This document shows, piece by piece, positions 14,522-53,833 of a DNA stretch of 64,000 nt. The stretch covers positions 1 to 64,000 of the forward strand of contig JAIQFZ010000022.1 in NCBI GenBank assembly GCA_020073015.1, read 5' to 3'. The notes beneath the pieces were generated by a model, which searched no databases, was not told the DNA's origin, and saw nothing but the letters and a program-made list of their open reading frames with translations. The DNA is from Terriglobia bacterium (GTDB lineage Bacteria > Acidobacteriota > Terriglobia > Terriglobales > Acidobacteriaceae). Every line of letters starts with the position of its first letter. Positions within the stretch are counted from its first letter, which is position 1. Made by a program: the position numbers and the translations under genes.

Positions 14522-14590
14522 CAGTTCCCAGTTCTCAGTAACAGCCGATAGCAGTTTGACGAGAACTGAGAACGGAGAACTGGGAACTGG
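14522..14590. repeat. Word repeat, AGTTCCCAGTTCTC type (inverted pair)
   Basis: The left arm (14522-14539) CAGTTCCCAGTTCTCAGT is complementary to the right arm (14563-14590), which reads ACTGAGAAC, an extra GGAGAAC, then TGGGAACTG. The unit is a degenerate 7-mer. It can fold as a hairpin with a seven-base bulge. It lies in the 5' region of the AsmA gene. Confidence 0.75.
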
Positions 14591-14663
14591 GCTTTTTGGT
14601 AGACTGTCCTTGACTGCCGTACCACCTCGCTTTCTTGCATTCCATCCTAGAGGAGGTGCTCCC

Positions 14664-40310: not shown

Positions 40311-41602
40311 TGCTGACTTCCTTCATGTCGTATCTGGGCAGCCAGTTCAGTCCGGGAGTGGCGGGCAATCAGCTCTGGGCCCTGATCTACATTCTCATTA
40401 TTTTTGCGGGCGTATCGGTCGCCGTGATCGCGATGAACTGGCTGGAGCGCAAGGCGCTGGCACATTTCCAGGTGCGGTTGGGGCCGATGCGCGTGGGCCC
40501 GCACGGATTGCTGCAGCCCATCGCCGATGCGCTCAAACTGCTGCTGAAGGAAGACATCATCCCCGCCGAAGCCGACCAGGTCGTCTTCTGGGTCGCGCCG
40601 CTGATCGGACTGCTGGCCGCCTTCACCGTCTACACGGTCGTACCCTTCGGGCCCTCGCAGGCGGTCAGCGACATGAACATTGGCATCCTGTTCATGCTCG
40701 GTGTGTCATCGCTCGGCGTGCTCGGCATTGTGACGGCCGGATGGGCGTCGAACTCGCACTACCCGTTGATCGGCGCGCTGCGTTCGAGCGCCCAGATGGT
40801 TTCGTATGAAGTCGCCATGGGACTGGCGGTGGTCTCGGCGATCCTGATGACGAGCCTCAACGAGAGCGGCACGGGAACGCTAAGCATGATCGGCATCGTG
40901 CAAGCGCAGCAGCAGCAAGGCATCTGGTTCATCTTCAAGTTCTTTCCGCTCGGCCTGATTGCGTTCGTGATCTTCGCCATCGCGATGGTGGCGGAAACGA
41001 ACCGGGCACCCTTCGACCTGGCCGAGGCCGAGTCGGAACTGACCGCTGGATTTCACACCGAGTACAGCGGCCTGCGCTGGTCGCTGTTCATGCTGGCCGA
41101 ATACGCGGCGATGATCGCCGTCTCGTCGATCGCCGTAACGCTCTGGCTGGGCGGATGGATGCATCCATTTCCGAACCTGCTGAGCGCGCCGGCATGGGAG
41201 TTCATCTTCTCCCTGTTCCCGGCGCTCACCTTCGGAGGCCTTGCGGCGATCGCCTTTCTAGGCGCAGCGCGCATGCCCGGACATTCGTTCTTCAAGATTC
41301 AACGCGCCGGCCTCGCTGTGTTTGCGGCTCTACTGGGGGTGCTTGCCCTGCTCCTGCTCGTCGTTGCGATTGCCGGACGCCATGCCGACACCAGCATCGC
41401 CGCCCGCTTCCGCGAAGGCATCGACTACGTGTACTGGTTCGTGCTGAAAGTGGCGGTCTTCATGTATCTGTTCATCTGGTATCGCGCGACGTGGCCGCGC
41501 TACCGTTTCGACCAGCTGATGAAAGTTGGGTGGAAAGTGATGCTGCCGATCTCACTCGGTGTGCTGATCGTGACCGCGATCGTGGGGGTGCTCGTTAAAT
41601 GA
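40310..41602 (+). CDS. nuoH: NADH:quinone oxidoreductase subunit H
   Basis: This 430-residue membrane subunit helps form the quinone channel. Conserved blocks are ERKALAHFQVRLGPMRVGPHGLLQPIADALKLL, the AEAESELTAGFHTEYSGLRW loop and the HADTSI-type end. It is about 80-100 residues longer than typical NuoH, with an inserted loop near residues 180-210 (NESGTGTLSMIGIVQAQQQQ) and a longer C-terminal part. It overlaps nuoJ by four bases, so nuoI is cleanly absent. Confidence 0.95.
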   Translation: MLTSFMSYLGSQFSPGVAGNQLWALIYILIIFAGVSVAVIAMNWLERKALAHFQVRLGPMRVGPHGLLQPIADALKLLLKEDIIPAEADQVVFWVAPLIGLLAAFTVYTVVPFGPSQAVSDMNIGILFMLGVSSLGVLGIVTAGWASNSHYPLIGALRSSAQMVSYEVAMGLAVVSAILMTSLNESGTGTLSMIGIVQAQQQQGIWFIFKFFPLGLIAFVIFAIAMVAETNRAPFDLAEAESELTAGFHTEYSGLRWSLFMLAEYAAMIAVSSIAVTLWLGGWMHPFPNLLSAPAWEFIFSLFPALTFGGLAAIAFLGAARMPGHSFFKIQRAGLAVFAALLGVLALLLLVVAIAGRHADTSIAARFREGIDYVYWFVLKVAVFMYLFIWYRATWPRYRFDQLMKVGWKVMLPISLGVLIVTAIVGVLVK

Positions 41603-42150
41603 CCCCGGAAATGACTCCCGTCGCGACGCCATTCTTCTTTTATCTGCTGTCGGGCTTGGCCATCATTGGCGGCGTGCTGGTGATCACGCGCCGCAACGCC
41701 GTGCATTCCGCGCTCGCGCTGATCGTGACGCTGCTGGCCGTTTCCGGACTCTACCTGATGCTTTACGCGCCCTTCGTCGCCGGCGTGCAAATCATCGTCT
41801 ACGCCGGCGGCATCATGGTGTTGTTCCTGTTCGTGATCATGCTGGTGAACATCGAGCGCACGGTGAAAGAGCGCCAGTTCAACCGCATCTGGCCCGCCGG
41901 AGTGCTGGCCGCGGCGGCGCTGCTGGGATTGTTCGTTTCGGTGTACGTGAAGGGCAAGACGCTGCTTAGCGATCCCGTGACCGGCAAGCCCCTGTGGCCG
42001 GATCCCACGATATCGCTGCCAGACTCGTCGAACACGCAACAGATTGGTGTGATGCTGTACGGCAATTACATGTTCGCCTTCGAAATCGCGTCGTTGCTGT
42101 TGCTGGTCGCGATCCTGGGGGCGGTGATTATGGCGAAGAAGAGAATCTGA
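41599..42150 (+). CDS. nuoJ: NADH:quinone oxidoreductase subunit J
   Basis: This 183-residue membrane subunit has five helices. Motifs are NAVHSALALIVTLLAVSGLYLML and the GGIMVLFLFVIMLVN block. The end reads LLLVAILGAVIMAKKR, standard for NuoJ. It is coupled to nuoH. The next gene, nuoK, starts 48 bases after its stop, the space being filled by a word repeat. Confidence 0.96.
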   Translation: MTPEMTPVATPFFFYLLSGLAIIGGVLVITRRNAVHSALALIVTLLAVSGLYLMLYAPFVAGVQIIVYAGGIMVLFLFVIMLVNIERTVKERQFNRIWPAGVLAAAALLGLFVSVYVKGKTLLSDPVTGKPLWPDPTISLPDSSNTQQIGVMLYGNYMFAFEIASLLLLVAILGAVIMAKKRI

Positions 42151-42153
42151 AAC

Positions 42154-42192
42154 CCGCTACTGGCTACTAGCTAGTAGCCAGCAGCCAGAAGC
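42154..42192. repeat. Word repeat, CTAGCTACTAGC type, perfect palindrome
   Basis: The core 42161-42180, TGGCTACTAGCTAGTAGCCA, is a perfect 20-base palindrome. The flank continues CCAGCAGCCAGAAGC. It ends seven bases before the nuoK start. Confidence 0.85.
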
Positions 42193-42198
42193 TGAACT

Positions 42199-42507
42199 AT
42201 GGCAGAGATCACCACGCTTCACTATCTCGTCGTCGCGGCGGCACTGTTTGTGCTGGGCGTGATCGGTGTGCTTACGCGGCGCAATGTCGTGATCGTGCTG
42301 ATGTCGATTGAGCTGATCCTAAACGCGGTGAACCTGAACCTGGTGGCGTTCTCGCGCATGTGGGGGAACTTGCATGGGCAGGTGTTCTCGGTCTTCATCG
42401 TGGTCGACGCCGCCGCCGAGGCTGCGGTCGGCCTCGGCATTCTGATCGCCTTCTTCCGGAATAAGGAGACGATCAATGTGGATGAGATCGATTTGTTGAA
42501 GTGGTGA
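42199..42507 (+). CDS. nuoK: NADH:quinone oxidoreductase subunit K
   Basis: This 102-residue three-helix membrane subunit has the [15 protein letters not shown] and [19 protein letters not shown] motifs, including the conserved glutamates of the proton path. No good ribosome-binding site exists because a word repeat abuts the start codon; translation may depend on coupling or on the repeat. Confidence 0.96.
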
Positions 42508-42508
42508 G

Positions 42509-42641
42509 GAAGTCGCGAGTGGCGAGAAGCGAGTCGCGAGTGAAGTGCTTCTAGCTACTAGCTTCTGGCTGCTAGCAACCATGGGCGAACAGGGAATGGC
42601 AAATAGCGAATCGCGAACTACGAACTACGAGTTGCAAACTA
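42509..42641. repeat. Word-repeat cluster between nuoK and nuoL
   Basis: Three word types follow one another: GTCGCGAGTGGCGAGAAGC (42512-42543), CTAGCTACTAGCTTCTGGC (42550-42577) and AGCGAATCGCGAACTACGAA (42604-42640). The third ends two bases before the nuoL start. No gene is apparent. Confidence 0.8.
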
Positions 42642-42642
42642 C

Positions 42643-44754
42643 ATGTTTCTAGACCACATCTGGCTCATTCCGCTGTTCCCGGCCTTTGGAGCCGCGATGA
42701 TGTTTTTCTTTGGACGGCGGATGCAGAAAGCCGCCGTCAGCACGGTCTGTGTCGGCGTGGTGGTGGTTGCGTTCGTGTTCGCCTGCGTCACGGTGGTCGA
42801 GTACACGCACTTCGCGCACGGCACCGGGCAGCCCTTCGAGAAGATCGTTTACACGTGGCTCGGTTCGGGTGATGCGCACCTCAGCTTCCTCAAGCGCGAC
42901 GGCACGCCCGCTCAGTTCAACGCTGACTTCGGCTTCCTGCTTGATCCGCTCTCGGTCATCTGGCTGCTCTTCGTTACCGGCGTGGGCATGCTGATCCATA
43001 TCTACTCGATCGGCTACATGGCGCACGAAGGCGGCTACTACCGCTTCTTCGGATACCTGAACCTGTTCATGTTCTCGATGCTCACGCTGGTGCTGGCGAA
43101 CAATTACGTGCTCCTGTTCGTCGGATGGGAAGGCGTGGGCCTGTGCTCGTACCTGCTGATCGGTTTCTATTTCCATCGCAAGTCGGCGAACGACGCCGCC
43201 AACAAGGCGTTCATCGTGAACCGCATTGGGGACGCTGGATTCATCCTCGGCGCGTTTACCCTGGCGTGGTATCTCGGTTCTTTCCGCTTCCTTGATATCA
43301 ATGCCGCTGCCCGCAGTGGACACTATCTGATCGGCGACACCGTTCTGACCGCCGCCGCGCTGCTGCTGTTCGTGGGCGCCTGCGGGAAGTCGGCGCAGAT
43401 TCCTCTCTATGTCTGGCTGCCCGACGCGATGGAGGGCCCCACGCCCGTGTCCGCGTTGATCCACGCGGCCACCATGGTGACGGCAGGCGTGTACATGGTG
43501 GCGCGCTCGAACGCCATCTTCGTGTTGGCGCCCACGGCGATGAAGACGGTCGCGATCATCGGCGCGCTCACCGCGATCTTTGCGGCGTCCATCGGCCTTG
43601 TCCAGAACGACATCAAGCGGGTGCTGGCTTATTCCACCGTGTCGCAACTGGGATACATGTTCCTGGCGCTCGGAGTGGGAGCATTTGCAGCGGGCGTGTT
43701 CCACGTCTTCACGCACGCGTTCTTCAAGGCTCTGCTCTTCCTCGGATCGGGCTCGGTGATCCACGCAGTCTCAGGCGAGCAGGACATGCGCAACATGGGC
43801 GACCTGCGCGGGCGCATTCCGACCACGTTCAAAACAATGTTCATCGCGACACTGGCGATCGCCGGTATCCCGCCGCTGGCAGGTTTCTTTTCGAAAGACG
43901 AAATCCTCTGGCAGGCTTGGCGTTCTGCTGACGGCGGGTTCCCGTATCTCTGGCTGATCGGCTTCGGCACGGCGCTGATGACCGCGTTCTACATGGCGCG
44001 ACTGATTTTCTTGACGTTCTATGGACAGCCACGCATGAGCCAGGAAGTGGAGCACCACATTCATGAATCGCCCAAGTCCATGACCGGCCCGTTGGTGGTG
44101 CTGGCAGTCTGCTCAGCGCTGGCCGGTTTCCTTGGAGTGCCGCATAGTCTCGGCGGTTCGAATGGTTTTGAGAAGTTCCTCGCACCCGTGTTCGAGCGTG
44201 GGACGGAAGCCGCTATTGCCGCGACGGAGGAGCCCCATCACCCCGCCGGCGAAGAACATCGCAAACTGGAATGGTTGCTGATGGTGCTCTCCGTCGGAGC
44301 GGCGGTCGTGGGTGGAGGGTGGGCCTATCGCCACTACGCGCTCGCCGGAAAAGACTATCCTGAGCCCATTGCTGTCAAGGCTCCGCCGCTTTACACCGTG
44401 CTCTACAACAAGTGGTTCGTCGACGAAGCTTACGACTACGCCTTCACCGGACGGCGCAAACTCGGCGACATCCGCCTGGGCGCCATGGGCGCGGGGGAAG
44501 CGTCGTCATGGTTTGACGCGAAGATTATTGACGGAACCGTAAACGGCGCAGGCTGGAGTACGCGCGCCGTGGCCACCCTTTCGACGTGGTGGGATAAGTG
44601 GATCATCGACGGCGTCGGAGTGAATGGGCCGGCGATTCTGGCGCGCATGATCTCGTATCCCACGCGCCTGCTGGAATGGGGCCTGGTGCAGTGGTACGCG
44701 CTGGTGATGGTGGCCGGGTTGCTAGGTTTTGCCGTGTATTACGTGTGGAAATGA
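42643..44754 (+). CDS. nuoL: NADH:quinone oxidoreductase subunit L
   Basis: This 703-residue antiporter-like proton-pumping subunit has about 16 hydrophobic segments. Motifs are LYVWLPDAMEGPTPVSALIHAATMVTAG, FVGWEGVGLCSYLLIGF and the C-terminal lateral-helix region with VLYNKWFVDEAYDYAF. Length is slightly above the usual 610-650. It is followed by a word-repeat pair. Confidence 0.96.
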   Translation: MFLDHIWLIPLFPAFGAAMMFFFGRRMQKAAVSTVCVGVVVVAFVFACVTVVEYTHFAHGTGQPFEKIVYTWLGSGDAHLSFLKRDGTPAQFNADFGFLLDPLSVIWLLFVTGVGMLIHIYSIGYMAHEGGYYRFFGYLNLFMFSMLTLVLANNYVLLFVGWEGVGLCSYLLIGFYFHRKSANDAANKAFIVNRIGDAGFILGAFTLAWYLGSFRFLDINAAARSGHYLIGDTVLTAAALLLFVGACGKSAQIPLYVWLPDAMEGPTPVSALIHAATMVTAGVYMVARSNAIFVLAPTAMKTVAIIGALTAIFAASIGLVQNDIKRVLAYSTVSQLGYMFLALGVGAFAAGVFHVFTHAFFKALLFLGSGSVIHAVSGEQDMRNMGDLRGRIPTTFKTMFIATLAIAGIPPLAGFFSKDEILWQAWRSADGGFPYLWLIGFGTALMTAFYMARLIFLTFYGQPRMSQEVEHHIHESPKSMTGPLVVLAVCSALAGFLGVPHSLGGSNGFEKFLAPVFERGTEAAIAATEEPHHPAGEEHRKLEWLLMVLSVGAAVVGGGWAYRHYALAGKDYPEPIAVKAPPLYTVLYNKWFVDEAYDYAFTGRRKLGDIRLGAMGAGEASSWFDAKIIDGTVNGAGWSTRAVATLSTWWDKWIIDGVGVNGPAILARMISYPTRLLEWGLVQWYALVMVAGLLGFAVYYVWK

Positions 44755-44756
44755 AC

Positions 44757-44847
44757 GGCTTCTAGCTACTGGCTTCTAGCGAGCAGAGCCAGTTAGAAGC
44801 GAAAGCCAGTAGCGTTTGCTAGAAGCTAGTAGCCAGAAGCTAGAAGC
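44757..44847. repeat. Word-repeat inverted pair between nuoL and nuoM
   Basis: GCTTCTAGCTACTGGCTTC (from 44758) and GAAGCTAGTAGCCAGAAGC (to 44840) are near-complementary arms with a short degenerate centre. The pair abuts the nuoM ribosome-binding region. Confidence 0.85.
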
Positions 44848-44855
44848 GATTCATT

Positions 44856-46550
44856 ATGCAGAGTCACATACTTTCGATCATCCTCTTCACGCCGCTGGTG
44901 GGCGCGTTCGTGCTCCTGTTTGTCCCCAAGGAGAACAAGGACGCGATCCGCTGGATTGCAAACATCTTCGCGCTCGGCGGCTTCCTGATTTCGATCCCGC
45001 TGGTGCCGATGTTCTGGGCGCAGCGCTTCGATGCCACGCAGCAGTTCAAGTTCATGGAAGGCTCGGCGAACAACTGGATCCCCTCGATTGGCGCGGGTTA
45101 CGTGCTCGGCATCGACGGCATCTCGTTCCTGCTGATCATGCTGACCACGCTGCTGGGATGGGTCTCGATCCTCTCGTCGTGGACCGCGATCGAGAGCCGC
45201 GTGAAGGAATACTATGTCTGGTTCCTGGTGTTGCAGACGGGCATGCTCGGCGTCTTCATGGCGCTCGATTTCTTCCTCTTTTTCGTGTTCTGGGAAGCGA
45301 TGCTGGTGCCGATGTACTTGCTGATCGGCATCTGGGGCGGGCCCAACAAGCTTTACGCCGCGATCAAGTTTTTCCTGTACACGTTGCTGGGCTCGGTGAT
45401 GATGTTGCTGGGCATCTTGTTCCTGTACTTCCATCACCACGCGGTCACGGGCATCTATACGTTCAGCATTCCCGAGCTGTACAAAACGGCGCCGCAAATT
45501 CCGTTCCATGCCGCGATCTGGCTATTCCTTGCCTTCTTCCTCGGATTCGCAATCAAAGTCCCGATGTTCCCGTTCCACACCTGGCTGCCGGACGCACACG
45601 TCGAGGCGCCCACGGCGGGCTCGGTGATTCTGGCGGGCGTTCTGCTGAAGATGGGGACGTACGGATTCGTCCGCTTCTCGCTGCCGTTCTTCCCGCAGGT
45701 GCTCTCCAGTACCGCTACATTCCTGAACGTGACGACTCGCGGCTGGATGATCGGCATTTCGCTGGTCGGCATTATTTATGGCGCGCTCGTCTCACTCATG
45801 CAGAAGGACATGAAGAAGCTGGTGGCGTATTCATCGGTCAGCCACCTGGGCTTCTGCACGCTGGGCATCTTCGCGCTGAACCCGGCGGGGCTGAGCGGAT
45901 CGGTGCTGCAGCAGATCAACCACGGCATCTCGACTGGCGCGCTCTTCTTGATCGTCGGCATTCTCTATGAGCGGCGGCACACGCGCGAGATCGCGGAGTA
46001 CGGCGGCATTTCGAACGTCATGCCGGTGTACGCGACGATCACCATGATTATGTTTCTCTCTTCGATGGGGCTGCCTCTGCTGAACGGCTTCGTCGGCGAG
46101 TTCACCATCCTGCAGGGAACGTTCACCGAGAGCTGGAAGTGGGCGGCGTGGGCCGCGCCGGGCGTGGTGCTGGCGGCCGCGTATCTGCTGTGGCTCTACC
46201 AGCGTGTGTTCTTCGGCACGGTTACGAATCCGAAGAACGAAAAGCTGCATGACCTGACGCTGCGCGAGATTCTCACGTTCGTTCCGCTGATCATTGCTGC
46301 GTTCTGGATCGGCCTGTATCCGAAGCCGTTCTTCCAGATTCTCGAGCAACCGGTCAATCAGATTGTGCTGACGGTTCGCCCGGGTTATCCGATTCCGGGA
46401 TATCCGAATGCGACTCCGGCGGTAAACGCGCAAGCCGCACCTGTAACCACGCCAGCGCAGATCCCCGCTACGGCCGTGACCGCGCCGACAGCGCCCGTTG
46501 CCAAGCCAGCGCACGCGGCCGCAGCCGCGAAACCGAAAGGGAGCTTCTAG
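44856..46550 (+). CDS. nuoM: NADH:quinone oxidoreductase subunit M, with Ala/Pro-rich tail
   Basis: This 564-residue antiporter-like subunit has 14 helices and motifs such as FFLFFVFWEAMLVPMYLLIGIWGG, PFHTWLPDAHVEAPTAGSVILAGVLLKMG and AGSP-type loops. The last about 48 residues are a low-complexity Ala/Pro/Thr tail ending KPKGSF, longer than in standard NuoM. It ends one base into the start of nuoN. Confidence 0.96.
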   Translation: MQSHILSIILFTPLVGAFVLLFVPKENKDAIRWIANIFALGGFLISIPLVPMFWAQRFDATQQFKFMEGSANNWIPSIGAGYVLGIDGISFLLIMLTTLLGWVSILSSWTAIESRVKEYYVWFLVLQTGMLGVFMALDFFLFFVFWEAMLVPMYLLIGIWGGPNKLYAAIKFFLYTLLGSVMMLLGILFLYFHHHAVTGIYTFSIPELYKTAPQIPFHAAIWLFLAFFLGFAIKVPMFPFHTWLPDAHVEAPTAGSVILAGVLLKMGTYGFVRFSLPFFPQVLSSTATFLNVTTRGWMIGISLVGIIYGALVSLMQKDMKKLVAYSSVSHLGFCTLGIFALNPAGLSGSVLQQINHGISTGALFLIVGILYERRHTREIAEYGGISNVMPVYATITMIMFLSSMGLPLLNGFVGEFTILQGTFTESWKWAAWAAPGVVLAAAYLLWLYQRVFFGTVTNPKNEKLHDLTLREILTFVPLIIAAFWIGLYPKPFFQILEQPVNQIVLTVRPGYPIPGYPNATPAVNAQAAPVTTPAQIPATAVTAPTAPVAKPAHAAAAAKPKGSF

Positions 46551-48058
46551 TGCTCGGTCTCTCGTCCGTCGAATACCGGCTCATGCTGCCCATGGTGGAG
46601 CTGGGCATTTTTGCGCTCGGCATTCTGATGATCGACCTGATGATTCCGCGCGAGTGGAAGTGGATGAATGCGGTGGGCGCCTTCGTGGGCGTGCTGTTCT
46701 CGGCCTTGTGCGTGTTCCAGATTCAGACCCTGTTTCCCCGCGGCGCGATTGGATTTTCTTATTCACTGCTCGTCGATCGCTTTGCCATTTACTTCTGGTA
46801 TCTGTTCCTGGCCGGAGCGGGGATCGCCATCCTGATGTCGGTGCGCTATCTCGACGTCGAAAACGAACATCACGGCGAATACTACGCGCTGCTGCTGCTC
46901 TCCGTGATCGGCATGATGTGCATGGCCGCCGGGATCGATATCGTACTCATCTTCATCGGCCTGGAACTGATGGCGATTTCGACTTACGTGCTGGTCGGCT
47001 TTCTGCGGCGCGACCGGCGCTCGAACGAAGCGGCCCTGAAGTATCTGTTGCTGGGAGCATTTTCGTCCGGCATTTTTGCCTACGGACTCTCGCTGTTTTA
47101 CGGGCTGTCGGGCAGCACCAACCTCAGGAGCATTGCGCAAGCTGTTTCGACTCGTAATCCGCATGACCCGGTGGTGATCATCGCGATGCTCACGACCATG
47201 GTCGGTCTGTTGTTCAAGATCGCGGCGATTCCGTTTCACCAGTGGGCGCCCGACGCCTACGAAGGCGCGCCCACCTGCATCACCGGCTTTATGTCGGTGG
47301 CAGTGAAAGCGGCGGCGTGGGCGATGTTGCTGCGCATCCTGGTGTTTGGGTTGTTCCCGCTACGCGCGGTTTACACGCCGGTGATCGTGTTCGTCTCGAT
47401 TGCCACCATGACGGGCGCGAACTTCGCCGCGCTCACGCAGACGAACACCAAGCGCCTGCTCGCCTACTCTTCGATCGCGCATGTCGGGTACATGCTGCTT
47501 GCCTTCGTGGCCATGGGGACTTCCGCTCCCAACAGTCCGGCCTTTATCGACGGCTTCAAGGGGATCCTGGTTTACCTGCTGGTGTACACGTTCATGAACC
47601 TGGGCGCGTTCGCGGTCATCACCTCGCTGCGCAACCGCAATGTGATTGGCGACGAACTCGACGACATCGCCGGGCTCTACTCGCGCGCGCCGGTCGAAGC
47701 TGTGCTGATGTTGCTCTTTCTGCTTTCGCTCGCCGGCATCCCGCCCGCTGCCGGATTCCTCGGCAAGTACTACATCTTCCTCAGCCTGATCGAGAGCCAG
47801 CATTACTGGCTGGCCGGTGCCGCCGTTCTCTACGCACTGTTCGGACTTTATTACTATTTGAAGATTGCGAATGCGATGTTCATGCGCGAAGCGATGGAAG
47901 CGGAGCGGTTGCCCATCAGCCTGGGAATGCGCGCCGCGCTCGGAGTCACCGCGCTCGCGACCCTCGTGATCGGAGTCTATCCCGAGCCCTTCATTCGAAG
48001 CGTGAACTGGTCGCTGGGAATCGCGCAGACCCCGCACGTGGCGGCGATGTTGAAGTAG
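46550..48058 (+). CDS. nuoN: NADH:quinone oxidoreductase subunit N
   Basis: This 502-residue antiporter-like subunit starts with GTG, overlapping the nuoM stop. Motifs are FIGLELMAISTYVLVGFLR, PFHQWAPDAYEGAPTCITGFMSVAVKAAAW and the TNTKRLLAYSSIAHVGYMLLA block. Length is normal. It is the last nuo gene; a weak hairpin follows. Confidence 0.96.
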   Translation: MLGLSSVEYRLMLPMVELGIFALGILMIDLMIPREWKWMNAVGAFVGVLFSALCVFQIQTLFPRGAIGFSYSLLVDRFAIYFWYLFLAGAGIAILMSVRYLDVENEHHGEYYALLLLSVIGMMCMAAGIDIVLIFIGLELMAISTYVLVGFLRRDRRSNEAALKYLLLGAFSSGIFAYGLSLFYGLSGSTNLRSIAQAVSTRNPHDPVVIIAMLTTMVGLLFKIAAIPFHQWAPDAYEGAPTCITGFMSVAVKAAAWAMLLRILVFGLFPLRAVYTPVIVFVSIATMTGANFAALTQTNTKRLLAYSSIAHVGYMLLAFVAMGTSAPNSPAFIDGFKGILVYLLVYTFMNLGAFAVITSLRNRNVIGDELDDIAGLYSRAPVEAVLMLLFLLSLAGIPPAAGFLGKYYIFLSLIESQHYWLAGAAVLYALFGLYYYLKIANAMFMREAMEAERLPISLGMRAALGVTALATLVIGVYPEPFIRSVNWSLGIAQTPHVAAMLK

Positions 48059-48064
48059 AAGGGA

Positions 48065-48093
48065 TTGCCTGGAGAATTGGGCAACCATTTTTA
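48065..48093 (+). terminator. Weak hairpin with T tract after nuoN
   Basis: TTGCC (48065-48069) and GGCAA (48080-48084) form a 5-bp stem, followed by CCATTTTTA. It is short but well placed to end the operon. Confidence 0.4.
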
Positions 48094-48154
48094 CTTCGCC
48101 CCACTCTAATGGCTGGGATATGCTTGGGATATCCTTACGAGAGAGAAGGCTATC

Positions 48155-51100
48155 ATGAGGCATCTCTCCGCTTCAGCTTTGCTTCTCTTGTCCTTCTGTC
48201 TCCCTCCACTCGCAGGGGCACAGACCTCTTCCATTAGCGGTACGGTTACGGACTCGACTGCGGCGGTTGTGCCTCAGGTGAAAGTCACCGCCCGCAACCT
48301 TTCGACTAACGTCTTGCGCAGCACGGCGACGGACGGGTCTGGAAGCTACCGGATCACGAGCCTGGTCCCAGGACTCTATGATGTGCTCGTCGAGCGGGCG
48401 GGCTTCAAGACCGTGGAGTATTCACGGGTGGAACTCACGGTCGGTCAGGTCCAAGACCTCAGCCCGACGCTGGTTCCGAGCGCGACCCCCGAAACGATCA
48501 CGGTGCACGGCGACGAAGTTGCACCGCTGGATTTGGACGATGCCCAGATCGGAAACATGGTCAAGAGCGAGCAGATCGAGAATCTGCCCATGATTCTGCG
48601 CGACCCGTATCAGCTGATTTTGCTCTCACCAGGCGCAATTCAGGGCAATTCCATTTTGCAAGGCCTCTCGGTAAATGGTTCGCGGGAGCGCAACAACAAC
48701 TTTTTGCTGGACGGCACTGACAACAATGATGCCGAGATTCCTGGCCTGACGCTGCCTCAGCCGGGACTGACTGCGCTGAATCCGGATTCTGTCCAGGAGT
48801 TTCGTGTCATCACGAGCAATTTTCTTCCCGAGTTTGGCCGCAACACGGGAGCGGTGATTGACATCGTGAGCAAGCGCGGCACCAACGATCTCCACTCTAA
48901 CGTCTACTGGTTCGGACGCTACGACGCGCTGGGTGCCCGCGACTATTTCAATCACCAGATTGATACGTTGGGGCAAGTGGCGCGCAAGGATTCATACTCT
49001 CGGAACACGTTTGGAGTCTCGAGCGGAGGTCCTCTGGTGCACGATAAGACCTTCTGGTTCGCGAGCTACGACGGCGAGCGATTCTCCACGACCCTGACGA
49101 ACACCAGCTATGTGCCGACCCAGGCGTTCAAGGCCGGAAGCTTCACATTCGACAACGTACCCATCGATGTCAGTACACCCACTTCGCCGTTTAACGTTTT
49201 CGGGTTGCCGCTGGATCCGACCATACAGAAGATCCTGGCGCTCTATCCCGCGCCGAACGGTCCCGCGGTTGACGACGTGCGCGGGCTGCTTTTCTATCCC
49301 AGCCCATCGCAGGCGACCGGCGATAACGTGAGCGTCCGGGTGGACCACAACTTCTCGCAGAAAGAAACCCTGGCGGTGCGCTACACCTTCAACCGGTACA
49401 TTGACCCCAACTTCGATCACACCGATTTCCTACCTGGCCTGGGCGGAACCGGAACTTCGCAGCGAAGACAGAATGCCACGCTGCAACTGACCTCGGTCAT
49501 CGATCCCAGACTGGTGAATAACTTTCGCCTAGGCGCAAACCGCATCAATTTCCCGCTCACTTGCGAGGGATTGAACGTTCTCGACAGCTTGGGATTGGCG
49601 GATTCGTATGGACGAGGGTTCGATCTTCCTCTGCCCGGCGTCGCCGGGTTCGGCTGCCTGCTGATCGTCGATCGCAATGGCTCGAAGCGGTTCAGTGGCA
49701 CTTATACGATCGCGGACGACGTGACCTGGGCTCGAGGCCGGCACACTTTCAAGTTCGGGGTCGAGACGCGTGATGCTTACTCCAACAGCACGAATGGTTT
49801 TTACTCGCGGCCCACGCTGGATTTCAACAATTTCGCGAACTTTGGGGGCGCCTCTGCCTTGCCCCCAACCGGCGACCCAAAAATCGACAACAACCCAACC
49901 CTGCAGGACATGGTGTGGGCGCTTTTTGGCACCGTGGGATCGGTGACCCAGGCGCAATTCTTCGACAAGGGCAGCAATCGTACCGCCGATGATCTCCGCG
50001 GATTCCGCCAGAAAGATTTCGGTGCCTTCGCGCAGGACACTTTCAAAATCCTTCCCAACCTCACTTTGAACTACGGCCTTCGCTACCAGTTCAATGGTGT
50101 CCCCTACGAAGTGAATAATTTGCTTTCGACGCTCTTTGCCGATCCCAGCGGGCAAGCCCCGTTTACCTTCACCGTGGCTGGGCGGAACGAGCACGGCCTG
50201 CCGCCGCTCTACAGTAACGACTGGCACGACTTTGAGCCGCGGGTCGGAATCGCGTGGGACCCTTGGAAGAACGGCAAGACCTCGATTCGCGCGGGCTATG
50301 GTGTCTTCCATGATCGTCTGTTCGGCCAGTTGCTGGGACTCGCGCGCGGGAACCCGCCCTTCCAGCAGGTATTCTTCGAGCCTTTTTTTGGCCTGCCGCC
50401 TTGTAATCCCCCGGCGATCCAGACTCAGTTTGGATTCTGCATCGGCCCACCCGTTTCCGCCCTGTCTTCGCCGCCGTCGCTGCCCACCTCAGCCGTCGTG
50501 AACCAGGGGGCGGGCGACCTGCCGTTCATTATCGATCCGCACCTGCGCATGCCTTACAGCCAGAGCTGGAATTTCGGAATCCAGCGTGATTTGCCTGGGA
50601 GTGTGCTCATGGAGGTCAACTACGTGGGATCGAAGGGAACGCACCTGCTCCGTCTGGTGGATGGCAATCCTCCGCAGCCCGCTTTGGTAGCCCAGTTATT
50701 GTCCGATGGTGTTCCTCCGGAGGCACTGCAGTTTAACAACCTCTGGTTTGGTGCTGAGACAATCGGTTTGCCCTTCGATGCGGTCAACAACAACGCCTTT
50801 CTGCACGCGGAGGTTTTCAACAACGCAGCTTCGTCGATCTATCACGCCTTGCAAGCCAACGTGACCAAGCGGATGTCGCGCGGCCTCACGTTCCAGGCCG
50901 CGTATACGTGGGCGCATGCCATTGACAACTCGTCCGACCCGCTGACGCCCTCCGTCGGCAACCAGGGATTCCCACGTGATTCGCTGAATCTTGCTGCCGA
51001 GCGCGGCAATTCCGACTTCGACGTGCGACAACGGCTGGTCATCAATTACTCCTGGACGCTTCCCTTGGGTCGCGGGCATGGCCACCTGGTCGAAGGGCTG

Positions 51101-51580
51101 GCGGGCACCGTCTTCGGAGGCTGGGAAGTGGCCGGGATCACGACCTTCTCCGGCGGCCTTCCGTACGATATCTTTACAGCGCTCGATACCGCCCATACCG
51201 GCCAGCAGCAACGCGCGGACTACAATCTGGCGGGCATGCCCCTTTCCGTCAGCAATCCGCGCACGCAAACCGGGCCGAACCCAGGCTTGTTCTCGAATCC
51301 AGCGTGGGGCAGCGCGGGCAACCTTGGGCGCAACCGCTTCTACGGTCCCGGCGTGAACCGCTGGGACATGGTTCTGCAAAAGACCTTAAGCCTTTCCGAA
51401 CGCTTCAATCTGCATTTCCGGGCCGAGAGCTACAACGTGTTCAATCGCGTCCAGTTCGGGCAGCCCGGAAACCTCATCTCCGATCAGGGTGCCCTCGGCC
51501 AGTCTACTTCCGAGGTGAGGCAACCCGACCTCACAACCGGCGCGCGGCAAATCCAGTTTGGGGTGAAGTTGAGCTTCTGA
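48155..51580 (+). CDS. Oar-like TonB-dependent receptor, copy 1
   Basis: This 1141-residue outer-membrane protein has a signal peptide (1-22), a carboxypeptidase-regulatory-like beta-sandwich (about 25-105), a plug-like segment with NGSRERNNNFLLDGTDNND and GRNTGAVIDIVSKRGTNDLH, and a long barrel ending in a C-terminal Phe (QFGVKLSF). These are hallmarks of acidobacterial Oar-type receptors, which may bind oligosaccharides or peptides. No TonB box is obvious. It lies between the nuo and atp clusters and is probably unrelated to them. Confidence 0.9.
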   Translation: MRHLSASALLLLSFCLPPLAGAQTSSISGTVTDSTAAVVPQVKVTARNLSTNVLRSTATDGSGSYRITSLVPGLYDVLVERAGFKTVEYSRVELTVGQVQDLSPTLVPSATPETITVHGDEVAPLDLDDAQIGNMVKSEQIENLPMILRDPYQLILLSPGAIQGNSILQGLSVNGSRERNNNFLLDGTDNNDAEIPGLTLPQPGLTALNPDSVQEFRVITSNFLPEFGRNTGAVIDIVSKRGTNDLHSNVYWFGRYDALGARDYFNHQIDTLGQVARKDSYSRNTFGVSSGGPLVHDKTFWFASYDGERFSTTLTNTSYVPTQAFKAGSFTFDNVPIDVSTPTSPFNVFGLPLDPTIQKILALYPAPNGPAVDDVRGLLFYPSPSQATGDNVSVRVDHNFSQKETLAVRYTFNRYIDPNFDHTDFLPGLGGTGTSQRRQNATLQLTSVIDPRLVNNFRLGANRINFPLTCEGLNVLDSLGLADSYGRGFDLPLPGVAGFGCLLIVDRNGSKRFSGTYTIADDVTWARGRHTFKFGVETRDAYSNSTNGFYSRPTLDFNNFANFGGASALPPTGDPKIDNNPTLQDMVWALFGTVGSVTQAQFFDKGSNRTADDLRGFRQKDFGAFAQDTFKILPNLTLNYGLRYQFNGVPYEVNNLLSTLFADPSGQAPFTFTVAGRNEHGLPPLYSNDWHDFEPRVGIAWDPWKNGKTSIRAGYGVFHDRLFGQLLGLARGNPPFQQVFFEPFFGLPPCNPPAIQTQFGFCIGPPVSALSSPPSLPTSAVVNQGAGDLPFIIDPHLRMPYSQSWNFGIQRDLPGSVLMEVNYVGSKGTHLLRLVDGNPPQPALVAQLLSDGVPPEALQFNNLWFGAETIGLPFDAVNNNAFLHAEVFNNAASSIYHALQANVTKRMSRGLTFQAAYTWAHAIDNSSDPLTPSVGNQGFPRDSLNLAAERGNSDFDVRQRLVINYSWTLPLGRGHGHLVEGLAGTVFGGWEVAGITTFSGGLPYDIFTALDTAHTGQQQRADYNLAGMPLSVSNPRTQTGPNPGLFSNPAWGSAGNLGRNRFYGPGVNRWDMVLQKTLSLSERFNLHFRAESYNVFNRVQFGQPGNLISDQGALGQSTSEVRQPDLTTGARQIQFGVKLSF

Positions 51581-51641
51581 TCTCTCCAATCGCTTGATCG
51601 CTGGCAGGCGACCGGCCAGCCGCTTGGTTTAGAATCCCGGC

Positions 51642-51875
51642 ATGCCTATGCCGGACAAGCCTTCCGAGAAAAAGGATCCGCTCGTCGCGCTCGCGCGCTA
51701 TTCCGAGATCGGGTTCATCATTCCCGGCGCGGTCCTGCTCGGTTTCTTTCTCGGCAAGCTTTTGGACTACTGGCTGCACACCAAGTGGCTCTACCTGGTT
51801 GGCTTGCTGTTTGGCGCGGTGGTGGGATTCGCGCAGATGATTCGCATGGCGCTGGGCGCTTCCAAAGATGAATGA
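51642..51875 (+). CDS. ATP synthase-associated AtpZ/AtpQ-like protein
   Basis: This 77-residue two-helix membrane protein has GFIIPGAVLLGFFLGKLLDYWLHT, matching the AtpZ group found at the start of atp operons. It overlaps the next gene by eight bases, which supports an operon. Its role is to assist Fo assembly or magnesium handling, by family inference. Confidence 0.8.
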   Translation: MPMPDKPSEKKDPLVALARYSEIGFIIPGAVLLGFFLGKLLDYWLHTKWLYLVGLLFGAVVGFAQMIRMALGASKDE

Positions 51876-52308
51876 CCAGGGGAGTCCGGAAACGCCCGCA
51901 CCGGACGTGCGGCTGGAGTCGTTCTATGCGCGCGCAATTCCGCGCATGCTCCGCATCATGCTGGTCGCAAGCGCCGTCCTGCTCGTGCCCGCGTTCTGGT
52001 TCTACAGCTGGGCGGGCGCGATTGGATTTGCGGCGGGCGCTGCAGTTTCCTACATCAATTTTCTCGCGCTGGCCCGCGGCGTGGAGGGCCTCGCCGAGCG
52101 CATCGTCAATCAGCATAGTCAGGAGAAGGGCCGGAGGATCGTGCTGCGCTTTATCGCGCGATACGGATTGGTGGCTGCCGTTGCCTATGCTATATTCAAA
52201 GGTTCTGCCTGGGCCTTTCGCGGCTTCCTGTGGGGGCTGTGCGTCCCGGTAGCGGCCATGATGATCGAGGCGGGGTTCGAGGCGTACGCAGCTTTCCGGC
52301 GGAAGTGA
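51868..52308 (+). CDS. atpI: ATP synthase subunit I-like protein
   Basis: This 146-residue membrane protein has four hydrophobic segments and the family-like GAAVSYINFLALARGVEGL and GLCVPVAAMMIEAG blocks. It belongs to the atpI group that helps assemble the c-ring. It overlaps the AtpZ-like gene by eight bases. Confidence 0.8.
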   Translation: MNDQGSPETPAPDVRLESFYARAIPRMLRIMLVASAVLLVPAFWFYSWAGAIGFAAGAAVSYINFLALARGVEGLAERIVNQHSQEKGRRIVLRFIARYGLVAAVAYAIFKGSAWAFRGFLWGLCVPVAAMMIEAGFEAYAAFRRK

Positions 52309-52363
52309 ACGACGAGGTTCGAGCCGCGATTTTTTCATAGTGGCCACCGCGGAAGGCAGGGTG

Positions 52364-52396
52364 CCTTCCGAACAGCCGGCTGGGCGCCGGCGCTAC
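52364..52396 (-). repeat. GTAGCGCCGGC hairpin element, copy 4 (inverted)
   Basis: On the minus strand the sequence reads GTAGCGCCGGC, GCCCA, GCCGGC, TGTTCGGAAGG. It lies between atpI and atpB, opposite in orientation to the other three copies. Confidence 0.7.
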
Positions 52397-52425
52397 TATC
52401 GTAGCTCGTAGCGGATCTGAATCGT

Positions 52426-53181
52426 ATGGAGCAACTGGCCTTTACAGCATTCCTGAACCGCCTGTTCGGCGCGCCGGTGCTGGCGCTGCTGCTGCGGCTG
52501 CACGTTCATCCCAAGCATCCTGCCACGCCCATCACGAACGCGGTTGCCATGGAAATTCTGGTCGTGCTGCTGCTGACGATCTTGTTCATCGTGCTGCGCA
52601 CGCGGCTCTCGGTGGAGCGGCCGGGCGCGCTGCAGCACACCATGGAAGGTATTTACGGGTTTGTCAATAACCTGGCGAGCGAGACGATTTCGCATCATCC
52701 GGAGAGGTTCGTCCCGTATCTGACCGCGCTCGGGCTATTCATCCTGAGCTGCAATCTGATCGGGGTGGTGCCGGGCCTGGAATCTCCAACGGCAGTGCCG
52801 ATGGTGCCGCTGGGCTGCGCGCTGTTCACGTGGTTTTACTACCATTATTACGGGGTGAGAGAGAACGGCCCCATCGGATATTTGAAGCACTTTATCGGGC
52901 CGCAAGAGGGCATGCCGTTGGCTGTCCGGTTGTTCTTGCCGATTCTGTTGTTCCCGATTGAGGTGTTCAGTCATACGGCGCGCGTCCTGTCACTGACTGT
53001 CCGTCTTTTCGCCAACATGTTCGCGGGCGAAATGGTGACCCTGGTGTTTTTCTCGCTCGTGCCGCTGGGCATCCCAATTGTGTTCGAAGGTCTGCATATC
53101 GGCGTGTCGTTGATTCAGACGTACATTTTTGTGCTGCTCGCCTGCGTTTATCTGGGAGAGGCGACGGCGCATGAGCACTAA
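52426..53181 (+). CDS. atpB: ATP synthase Fo subunit a
   Basis: This 251-residue membrane subunit forms the proton half-channels. The conserved LSLTVRLFANMFAGE helix with the essential Arg and the C-terminal IQTYIFVLLACVYLGEA block are visible. Length is normal. An inverted word repeat follows. Confidence 0.96.
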   Translation: MEQLAFTAFLNRLFGAPVLALLLRLHVHPKHPATPITNAVAMEILVVLLLTILFIVLRTRLSVERPGALQHTMEGIYGFVNNLASETISHHPERFVPYLTALGLFILSCNLIGVVPGLESPTAVPMVPLGCALFTWFYYHYYGVRENGPIGYLKHFIGPQEGMPLAVRLFLPILLFPIEVFSHTARVLSLTVRLFANMFAGEMVTLVFFSLVPLGIPIVFEGLHIGVSLIQTYIFVLLACVYLGEATAHEH

Positions 53182-53183
53182 AC

Positions 53184-53270
53184 ATCAGGTCACAGGTCAC
53201 AGGTGTCAGGTGTCAGGTCTCAGGAATTCAACTGCAAAGGTTTTCCTGAGACCTGTGACCTGTCACCTGC
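53184..53270. repeat. Word-repeat inverted pair between atpB and atpE
   Basis: The left arm (53185-53226) is built from CAGGTCACAGGTCAC and AGGTGTCAGGTGTCAGG words, and the right arm (53245-53270) is CCTGAGACCTGTGACCTGTC, an inverted partner. The two can fold as a large hairpin upstream of atpE. Confidence 0.85.
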
Positions 53271-53347
53271 CTTCAGCGTGAGGGCGTTGGCTCACTCGAG
53301 CGCGGCGCTAACCACCCACTGGGGGCAATTCATATAAGGAGAAGCAA

Positions 53348-53659
53348 ATGCGGAAATTCGTGATGTTGATGTTCGTGATGATGATGGCGTCGGTGCTGGC
53401 GGTGCCGGCGTTCGCGCAGACCGGCGGAGGCGCAGCTGGTTCAACCAACTGGGTGGCAATCACTTCTGGTTTCGCGATCGCCATCGCAGCCGGGTTGGCG
53501 GCGCAAGGGCAAGGCCGTACCGCATCGGCGGCGTGCGAAGCGCTCGGACGCAATCCGGCTGCCCGCGCGGGCATTCAGGTGGCGCTGATTCTGGGTCTGG
53601 CCTTTATCGAGTCGTTGGTGCTGTTCACGCTCGTGATTATTTTCGTGAAAGTCTTGTAG
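53348..53659 (+). CDS. atpE: ATP synthase Fo subunit c with signal-like N-terminus
   Basis: The 103-residue product has an N-terminal segment (1-24, ending PAFAQ) that looks like a signal peptide, then the two-helix c subunit. The ion-binding Glu lies in LGLAFIESLVLF. Helix 1 has Gln aligned with the Gln of known sodium c-rings and ES at the Glu position, but the Thr and Tyr that coordinate sodium in Ilyobacter are Leu and Phe here, so the ion is unclear. AAGGAG lies upstream of the start. Confidence 0.93.
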   Translation: MRKFVMLMFVMMMASVLAVPAFAQTGGGAAGSTNWVAITSGFAIAIAAGLAAQGQGRTASAACEALGRNPAARAGIQVALILGLAFIESLVLFTLVIIFVKVL

Positions 53660-53690
53660 AACCAGTCGCTCGGAGTTCGTAGTTCGTAAG

Positions 53691-53718
53691 AAAGGCCTCT
53701 GCTTCGGCGGGGGCTTTT
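53691..53718 (+). terminator. Intrinsic terminator of the atp cluster
   Basis: GGCCTCTGC and GCGGGGGCT form a stem with two G-U pairs over a stable TTCG loop, flanked by AAA and TTTT. It lies 32 bases after the atpE stop and can act on both strands. Confidence 0.85.
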
Positions 53719-53755
53719 GTATGCTTGCGCTGGGATTTCCGAGCTGCGGCTTCGA

Positions 53756-53805
53756 GCAAGCGAGGAGCGAGTGGCGAGTGGCGAGTGGCGAGCAGGGAGC
53801 CGCGA
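53756..53805. repeat. Word repeat, GCGAGTGGCGAG type
   Basis: Four to five degenerate GCGAGTG 7-mers in tandem, between the atpE terminator and the PilZ gene end. No inverted partner. Confidence 0.7.
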
Positions 53806-53833
53806 AACGTCAAGCTAAAGCCAAGAGCCTGCT

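Follow-up and report, generated by a model that had tools for sequence, protein, structure and literature searches.

Degenerate 7-bp tandem arrays at the nuo operon junctions and across the genome of a Terriglobia bacterium, with preferred words that differ between related species

The window analyzed here (the whole stretch of DNA under study, 64,000 nucleotides or 64 kb) carries part of a nuo operon encoding complex I. Its nearest named NuoL relatives belong to metagenome-assembled genomes labelled Acidobacteriaceae, Terriglobales or Candidatus Sulfotelmatobacter, and are at most 83% identical. The genes nuoJ to nuoM and the arrays that lie between them are as follows (z, RNA folding score; arrays have no strand assigned).

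41599..42150, plus strand: nuoJ (complex I chain 6; Pfam Oxidored_q3, E 8.9e-42)
42156..42193, no strand: inverted pair of J-K arrays built of GCTNCTA-type units, with a perfect 22-base palindrome at 42160-42181 (z -4.5)
42199..42507, plus strand: nuoK (chain 4L; Pfam Oxidored_q2, E 2.1e-30)
42512..42542, no strand: K-L first array, GCGAGTG / GCGAGAA / GCGAGTC units
42547..42576, no strand: K-L second array, GCTNCTA / GCTNCTG units
42595..42642, no strand: K-L third array, reaching as far as the nuoL start codon, with GCGAACT / ACGAACT units
42643..44754, plus strand: nuoL (chain 5; Pfam Proton_antipo_N and _M)
44758..44780, no strand: L-M 5' arm, GCTTCTA GCTACTG GCTTCTA GC, 23 nt, 91% complementary to 44818-44840
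44816..44847, no strand: L-M 3' arm, TT GCTAGAA GCTAGTA GCCAGAA GCTAGAA GC, separated from the nuoM start by 8 nt (L-M spacer, z -7.4)
44856..46550, plus strand: nuoM (chain 4; Pfam Proton_antipo_M, E 8.2e-75)

A first-pass annotation of this DNA had described the nuoJ-K, K-L and L-M junctions as all filled by repeated words. This is correct, and all three consist of degenerate tandem heptads; a period of 7 does not appear in that description. The J-K and L-M junctions are inverted pairs of GCTNCTA-type units, whereas K-L holds three successive arrays of different words. The junction between nuoM and the next gene has no array, the downstream gene overlapping nuoM. The perfect palindrome previously reported as 20 bases is the J-K core, which spans 22, and the inverted pair at L-M has arms of 23 nt (91% complementary) or 31 nt (87%). 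Compared with mononucleotide shuffles, the J-K and L-M spacers fold strongly (z as listed), whereas K-L does not fold beyond chance (z -0.6). The same annotation had linked the words to weak or absent Shine-Dalgarno sites. The nuoK, nuoL and nuoM starts do lack a clear core, but this is not specific to genes preceded by arrays, since among genes whose start closely follows an array 6 of 25 have a core, vs 198 of 631 others (p 0.51).

A strict lag scan (25/35 matches) of the 64-kb window picked out J-K, K-L and two other regions at lag 7, and zero regions at lags 3-6 and 8-13; L-M is too degenerate for the strict scan and passes a laxer threshold of 15/21. Arrays elsewhere in the window lie in the atpB-atpE spacer and in a convergent and a divergent spacer.

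53186..53210, no strand: 5' arm in the atpB-atpE spacer, CAGGTCA / CAGGTGT units, 23/25 positions pairing with 53245-53269
53245..53269, no strand: 3' arm in the atpB-atpE spacer, the flanking genes being ATP-synt_A and ATP-synt_C (Pfam)
53756..53805, no strand: GCGAGTG-type array in a convergent spacer
14559..14602, no strand: AACTGRG-type array in a divergent spacer

The arrays are not confined to the nuo locus, a point that the first-pass annotation had set down for checking, and they form a repeat class in their own right, genome-wide and with strong preferences of position and orientation. In a 661-kb sample of the genome, comprising the window itself, the starts of 20 even-numbered contigs and, from four long contigs, 20 stretches placed away from the listed matches, lag-7 arrays were present in 25 of 438 spacers, as delimited by script-made gene calls rather than curated annotation. 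At other lags, the same spacers gave 0 arrays at lags 3-6 and 9-13 and 3 at lag 8. Lag 14, equal to two units, gave 15, and no single lag from 15 to 24 gave more than 3 (range 0-3). The period is thus exactly 7 bp, and the arrays are dispersed and largely outside coding DNA, with a density of 354 per Mb between genes vs 3.6 per Mb inside genes; loci L001-L020, mostly chosen because they hold the seed word, were left out of these density counts. Extrapolation from the 32 arrays in 661 kb gives a total of about 270 in the 5.5-Mb genome. The grammar RCTRRNA x3 + RC, with one mismatch allowed and overlapping windows, has 104 + 91 = 195 matches in this genome and 0 for the reversed control. Within coding DNA, the F1 heptad unit is rarer than its reversed control (10.5 vs 102.8 per Mb).

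Across the phylum, matches to the grammar were found in 163 of 396 Acidobacteriota genomes and 92 of 211 genera, single matches carrying little weight. In some genomes the reversed control equals or exceeds the grammar (12 vs 144 in G331, 12 vs 85 in G282), and counts within the one genus g40 span 0 to 124. The heptad grammar is not universal in Acidobacteriota. A different array, (ACTGATA)n, is present in genomes G383 and G330.

Expectation-maximization (EM) fitting over 168 arrays yielded the unit consensus R-C-Y-R-R-N-A, with column information of 0.47, 1.63, 0.60, 0.51, 0.46, 0.00, and 0.38 bits, respectively, i.e. with one free column; in a nine-family fit, the words mostly, though not always, obey this consensus. 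Mismatches between neighboring units are uneven over the columns in 9/9 word families (p 4.6e-3 to 1.6e-50, with phases fitted on the same arrays). Neighboring units of one array differ at 136 of 224 free-column positions and at 319 of 1266 positions in the other columns. Between orthologous spacers that use the same word (43 pairs, not independent), divergence affects 75/409 free-column, 175/1069 loop, and 243/2365 other-column positions, so that the constraint on the non-free columns is moderate (0.103 vs 0.164 in loops). Identity in the free column is 0.40 between neighboring units vs 0.31 between units of different arrays. Because the specified columns agree while one column is free, the units look like recognition sites rather than copies of one unit.

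The arrays also have a preferred place and a nearly fixed polarity, preferences that the first-pass annotation had set down as a second point to check. Among 182 arrays, 138 lie at most 15 nt from a gene edge, and outward is the prevailing direction of the grammar strand at either edge (left +18/-64, right +78/-10; Fisher p 1.4e-19). In co-directional spacers (165 arrays), those near the stop codon only are 56 antisense, 5 sense, and 4 unclear, and those near the start codon only are 52 sense, 1 antisense, and 4 unclear; the corresponding sense, antisense, and unclear counts are 27, 7, and 1 near neither edge and 5, 2, and 1 near both. Both sets include L001-L020 and the nuo loci and are therefore not random samples. 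Other spacers hold a small number of arrays (left 0/4, right 7/4), and their agreement with outward polarity is weak (p 0.08). A further expectation, enrichment between co-directional genes, was not upheld: it is suggestive in our own sample (arrays in 20/280 co-directional, 4/67 divergent, and 1/66 convergent spacers) and absent in G107 (6/173, 5/56, and 3/36, respectively). Inverted arms scoring at least 10 occur in 78 of 134 co-directional spacers with heptads vs 79 of 500 others, identical spacers being counted once in the former set only. Paired arms have their word family in common, but not their free bases.

We searched 24 genomes of the same genus, of which 21 (own included) gave nuo junctions, and 20 of these 21 carry at least one array there. 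Lag-7 arrays occupy 49 of 61 junctions (J-K 14/20, K-L 17/21, L-M 18/20), and arrays at lags 5, 6, 8, and 9 occupy 0 of 61; in four more distant Acidobacteriota (L030, L031, L034, L038) the nuo junctions measure at most 12 nt. Orthologous spacers often switch word between species, and at J-K and L-M they do so in both arms together. For example, the L-M spacers of L123 and L124, whose coding DNA is 90.5% identical, score 0.55, whereas those of L123 and L021, with 87% identical coding DNA, score 0.95. A score of 0.55 corresponds to unrelated sequence, since non-orthologous spacers score 0.45-0.60 in 348 of 428 pairs. An arm matches its own partner better than the arm of another species, with scores of 15.5 vs 9.6 at L-M and 12.3 vs 7.1 at J-K, and with a smaller gap at K-L (10.2 vs 7.0). 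Whole pairs can also be present or absent: spacer 57532 is 0-30 nt long in five genomes and 110-142 nt long, with a GCTNCGA-type array pair, in three.

Preferred heptad words differ between species genome-wide, as a dialect. Among the 24 genomes, GCTNCTR has 124 copies in our own genome vs 5 in G001, GCTNTTR has 27 vs 228 in G001, and GCANTTR has 1 vs 213 in G016; the heterogeneity of four words gives a chi-square of 2359 with 63 df, inflated by overlapping windows. Each genome employs several words together, e.g. GCTNCTR (124), AGGTNTC (102, one mismatch allowed), GCTNTTR (27), and GCTNCGR (20) in our own genome. The words at the nuo junctions track those of the genome in which they lie, with a log-likelihood of -163 vs -378 ± 45 when permuted (18 of 20 genomes having the minimum word counts), and a partial Mantel test with coding identity held fixed gave r 0.56 and p 0.0002 (19 genomes having the minimum counts). 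These dialect tests used six words, all taken from nuo and atp spacers, together with draft genomes that are 71-100% complete. In G021, the nuo junctions are without array and all six words have 0 copies. The atpB-atpE spacer behaves similarly in the 8 genomes with arrays there, sorted by eye and leaving out G019, which has none: CAGTANC makes up 0.48-1.0 of the genome total of the two words in three species with CAGTANC at this site, and 0.03-0.44 in four AGGTNTC species and one mixed species. By our own arithmetic, such perfect sorting has a chance of 1 in 56; the two groups come closest at 0.44 and 0.48.

Units that resemble recognition sites, together with dialects, point to a recognizing factor or process whose specificity changes, and we infer that the arrays are shaped as DNA, through sequence-specific recognition. 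The nuo junctions carry members of the genome-wide class of 7-bp arrays, and we tentatively favor, at somewhat less than even confidence, the view that this class undergoes recognition-driven concerted evolution at the DNA level. A putative trans-acting factor or process would read the 7-bp unit while ignoring one base, with preferred words that differ between species; individual events in spacers would create or replace arrays, whose words would then drift toward the current words of the genome, and unit-wise slippage would alter array length by single units. The nuo junctions would be ordinary sites of this class, with no special regulator of complex I. Counting against one recognizing factor, several words are used at once per genome. 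The favored view is also weakened by the merely moderate constraint on the non-free columns, by the scarcity of the F1 unit in coding DNA, which sets it apart from known uptake sequences, by the non-universal grammar, and by the small set of words and the draft genomes behind the dialect tests.

The first-pass annotation had suggested that the words shape hairpins and stoichiometry in the operon transcript, i.e. that intercistronic RNA hairpins are under selection for mRNA processing, translational coupling, or subunit stoichiometry. The arms do sit between stop and start codons, the J-K and L-M arms switch word in step, inverted arms are commoner in spacers with heptads, and 45 of 63 junctions of 60-260 nt fold with z < -2 against mononucleotide shuffles (L134 and L138, duplicates of L021 and L022, and L140 being left out); however, any inverted pair would fold below its shuffles. 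If the transcript stems were selected, G-U mismatches would be expected to outnumber A-C mismatches, whereas the counts are equal (49 G-U and 48 A-C, with 102 others), showing no wobble preference. The free column is paired in 148 of 223 cases (0.66) vs 0.64 ± 0.02 by chance; an apparent excess of 0.68 vs 0.39 for slid arrays, with the best register chosen, was gone once the register was refound in permuted arrays. Moreover, the K-L spacer of our own genome does not fold beyond chance, arrays also occur between divergent and convergent genes (G107), and positions 41400-54000 of the window gave no Rfam match at the gathering score. Selection on RNA hairpins is not supported, and we consider this explanation very unlikely.

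A serious rival is a combination of mutation and recombination, with slippage in 7-nt steps helped by hairpin arms, and ectopic recombination spreading the words, without recognition or function. Many bacteria have an excess of heptamers, and earlier work has put forward a slippage step determined by the contact length of the polymerase (work cited in Rehm 2015, PMC4692102); of the 37 gaps of 4 nt or more that separate same-word orthologs, 14 measure exactly 7 nt (pairs not independent), coding DNA is almost free of arrays, as it would be of frame-breaking insertions, and concerted evolution based on recombination could yield dialects. Yet strict gene-edge polarity is not predicted by such a process, and the word families hold most columns with one or two free. 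Free-column agreement between neighbors is barely raised (0.40 vs 0.31), indicating that the arrays are neither fresh copies of a unit nor copies of one another, so that the slippage proposed in the first-pass annotation is weakly supported. For the J-K pair of G017, the one pair tested, the matches listed include no near-identical donor (best 75-78%). We regard this rival as somewhat unlikely. The missing donor also weighs against an origin as a mobile palindrome with heptad arms, akin to REP/RAYT or MITE elements, since no near-identical full-length copy of the tested pair is among those matches. The mobility that the first-pass annotation had proposed agrees with the presence or absence of whole pairs between species (spacer 57532), and our own genome holds 8 Y1_Tnp matches; however, the arms have no fixed sequence. 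A RAYT (Y1_Tnp) is expected in genomes with REP/REPIN elements, but 9 of the 10 g40 genomes with at least 16 heptad matches have no Y1_Tnp match, and two g40 genomes without a heptad match carry 5 and 7. A search for PF01797 in 396 genomes of the phylum, with the contrasts read from the tables by eye, thus gave no link in g40. The arrays are, as had been noted before, unlike both REP and CRISPR elements: they are contiguous degenerate 7-mers, neither fixed palindromes of 20-40 bp nor near-identical repeats that measure about 23-55 bp and alternate with spacers. A mobile origin is, in our judgment, very unlikely.

A templated adder, similar to telomerase, could instead extend both 3' ends of a broken spacer, writing one arm on each before the ends are joined. 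A single step would then give the same word in both arms, in opposite orientation and with independent free columns, and would fit both the indifference to gene direction and the gain of whole pairs. Against this, a search for PF00078 in the 396 genomes found no RVT_1 match in 7 of the 10 heptad-rich g40 genomes (also read by eye from the tables), so a reverse transcriptase detectable by this model is not required, and neither is a RAYT. Such a writer seems highly improbable.

Heptamer arrays as such are of a known kind. In the sections of the following papers on which we draw, Xanthomonas (GGGANTN)n and Nostoc GGGGA(C/T)T arrays are heterogeneous heptamers with G-quadruplex potential, two Xanthomonas genomes have 70 and 75 convergent inverted heptamer pairs, and these heptamers vary much between related species, with no function found (Rehm 2015, PMC4692102). 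They have in common with the present arrays 7-bp units with free positions, a mostly intergenic location, inverted pairs, and gene-edge polarity, but theirs is a G-rich word, whereas the present arrays use many words without G runs, with preferred words differing within the genus; 0 of the 9 EM consensus words contains GGG, whereas each unit of the G-quadruplex heptamers has a run of 3-4 G. In marine Beggiatoaceae, Cyanobacteria, and Bacteroidetes, direct repeats of TAACTGA closely precede start codons; one orientation predominates, and most sets lack a canonical ribosome site (MacGregor 2015, PMC4679880). The likeness lies in the heptamer arrays adjacent to start codons, and (ACTGATA)n of G383 and G330 is the TAACTGA word in another phase; however, those sets consist of one word, related heptamers are seldom repeated, and 1 of 170 sets is inverted, as opposed to the several words and frequent inverted arms found here. 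Tandem heptamers are the commonest intergenic periodic repeat in prokaryotes, with no clear functional clue in the text used (Mori 2018, PMC6344855). Period, intergenic location, and wide spread are alike, but that work is a survey of periods, and the part drawn on here does not deal with grammar, polarity, arm pairing, or dialects. In parS of plasmid pSM19035, 7-bp sites adjoin one another as direct or inverted units, and each heptad binds one omega/ParB dimer (PMC9499535), an arrangement like that of the present arrays, although it is a plasmid partition site with one consensus and the arrays occupy many chromosomal loci with many words. The dialects resemble those of DNA uptake sequences, in that a many-copy word varies genome-wide between species. 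Uptake sequences are not 7-bp tandem arrays, being enriched as single sites genome-wide, coding DNA included, whereas the F1 heptad unit is depleted in coding DNA. In Neisseriaceae, the uptake word is known to differ between related species (Frye 2013, PMC3630211, in the part cited here). Species dialects, or such arrays in Acidobacteriota, are not reported among the literature matches listed, which are mostly open-access; a 2025 survey of short tandem repeats (PMC12699852) contains none of the five terms sought in it.

Heptad arrays can disturb spacer alignments and hairpin predictions, and caution is needed not to take them as regulators of the host operon. On a broader and distinctly speculative proposal, which we rate as unlikely, gene-edge arrays would be maintained genome-wide in Acidobacteriota by a trans-acting system able to write or read 7-bp words, its changing specificity would produce the species dialects, and a system of the same kind may underlie the arrays of Xanthomonas, Nostoc, and Beggiatoaceae. 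A genus in which dialects differ at the same spacers makes the role of heptamer arrays testable.

Inverted pairs of heptad units were also found at the nuoL-M junction of two more distant Acidobacteria (loci L029 and L039), where the words, GGATTTCGGATTGC and CCAAAATCCAAAATCG, are quite different; the architecture therefore extends past the RCYRRNA consensus. The reversed control pattern, i.e. the heptad grammar written backwards, gave many matches in some Acidobacteriota genomes (G096, G144, G139, G331, G282, and others), up to 144, and these may represent additional heptad words outside the consensus. Perfect (ACTGATA)n arrays are present in Acidobacteriota as well (genomes G383 and G330, family f22), the word being the same as the TAACTGA described for Beggiatoaceae and Cyanobacteria (PMC4679880).

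Some nuo spacers of relatives contain a palindromic repeat other than the heptads, TGTCATCCTGAGCGAAGCGAAGGACCT and its variants, which adjoins heptad arrays at the nuo junctions of loci L122, L125, L126, L129, and L136. In the sample of the window's own genome, CTAG (counted on both strands) occurs 1038 times per Mb of coding DNA and 5293 times per Mb between genes, a roughly fivefold depletion within genes, and GCTNCTAGC units account for only part of the intergenic copies.

One further observation concerns a block near atpE:

53270-53347, about 75 nt, block 5' of atpE, CTTCAGCGTGAGGGC...AACCACCCACTGGGGGCAATTCATATAAGGAGA

This block is well conserved across the nine genus genomes compared, and a scan of positions 41400-54000 gave no Rfam match to it at the gathering score. 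It is possibly an atpE leader or a regulatory element.
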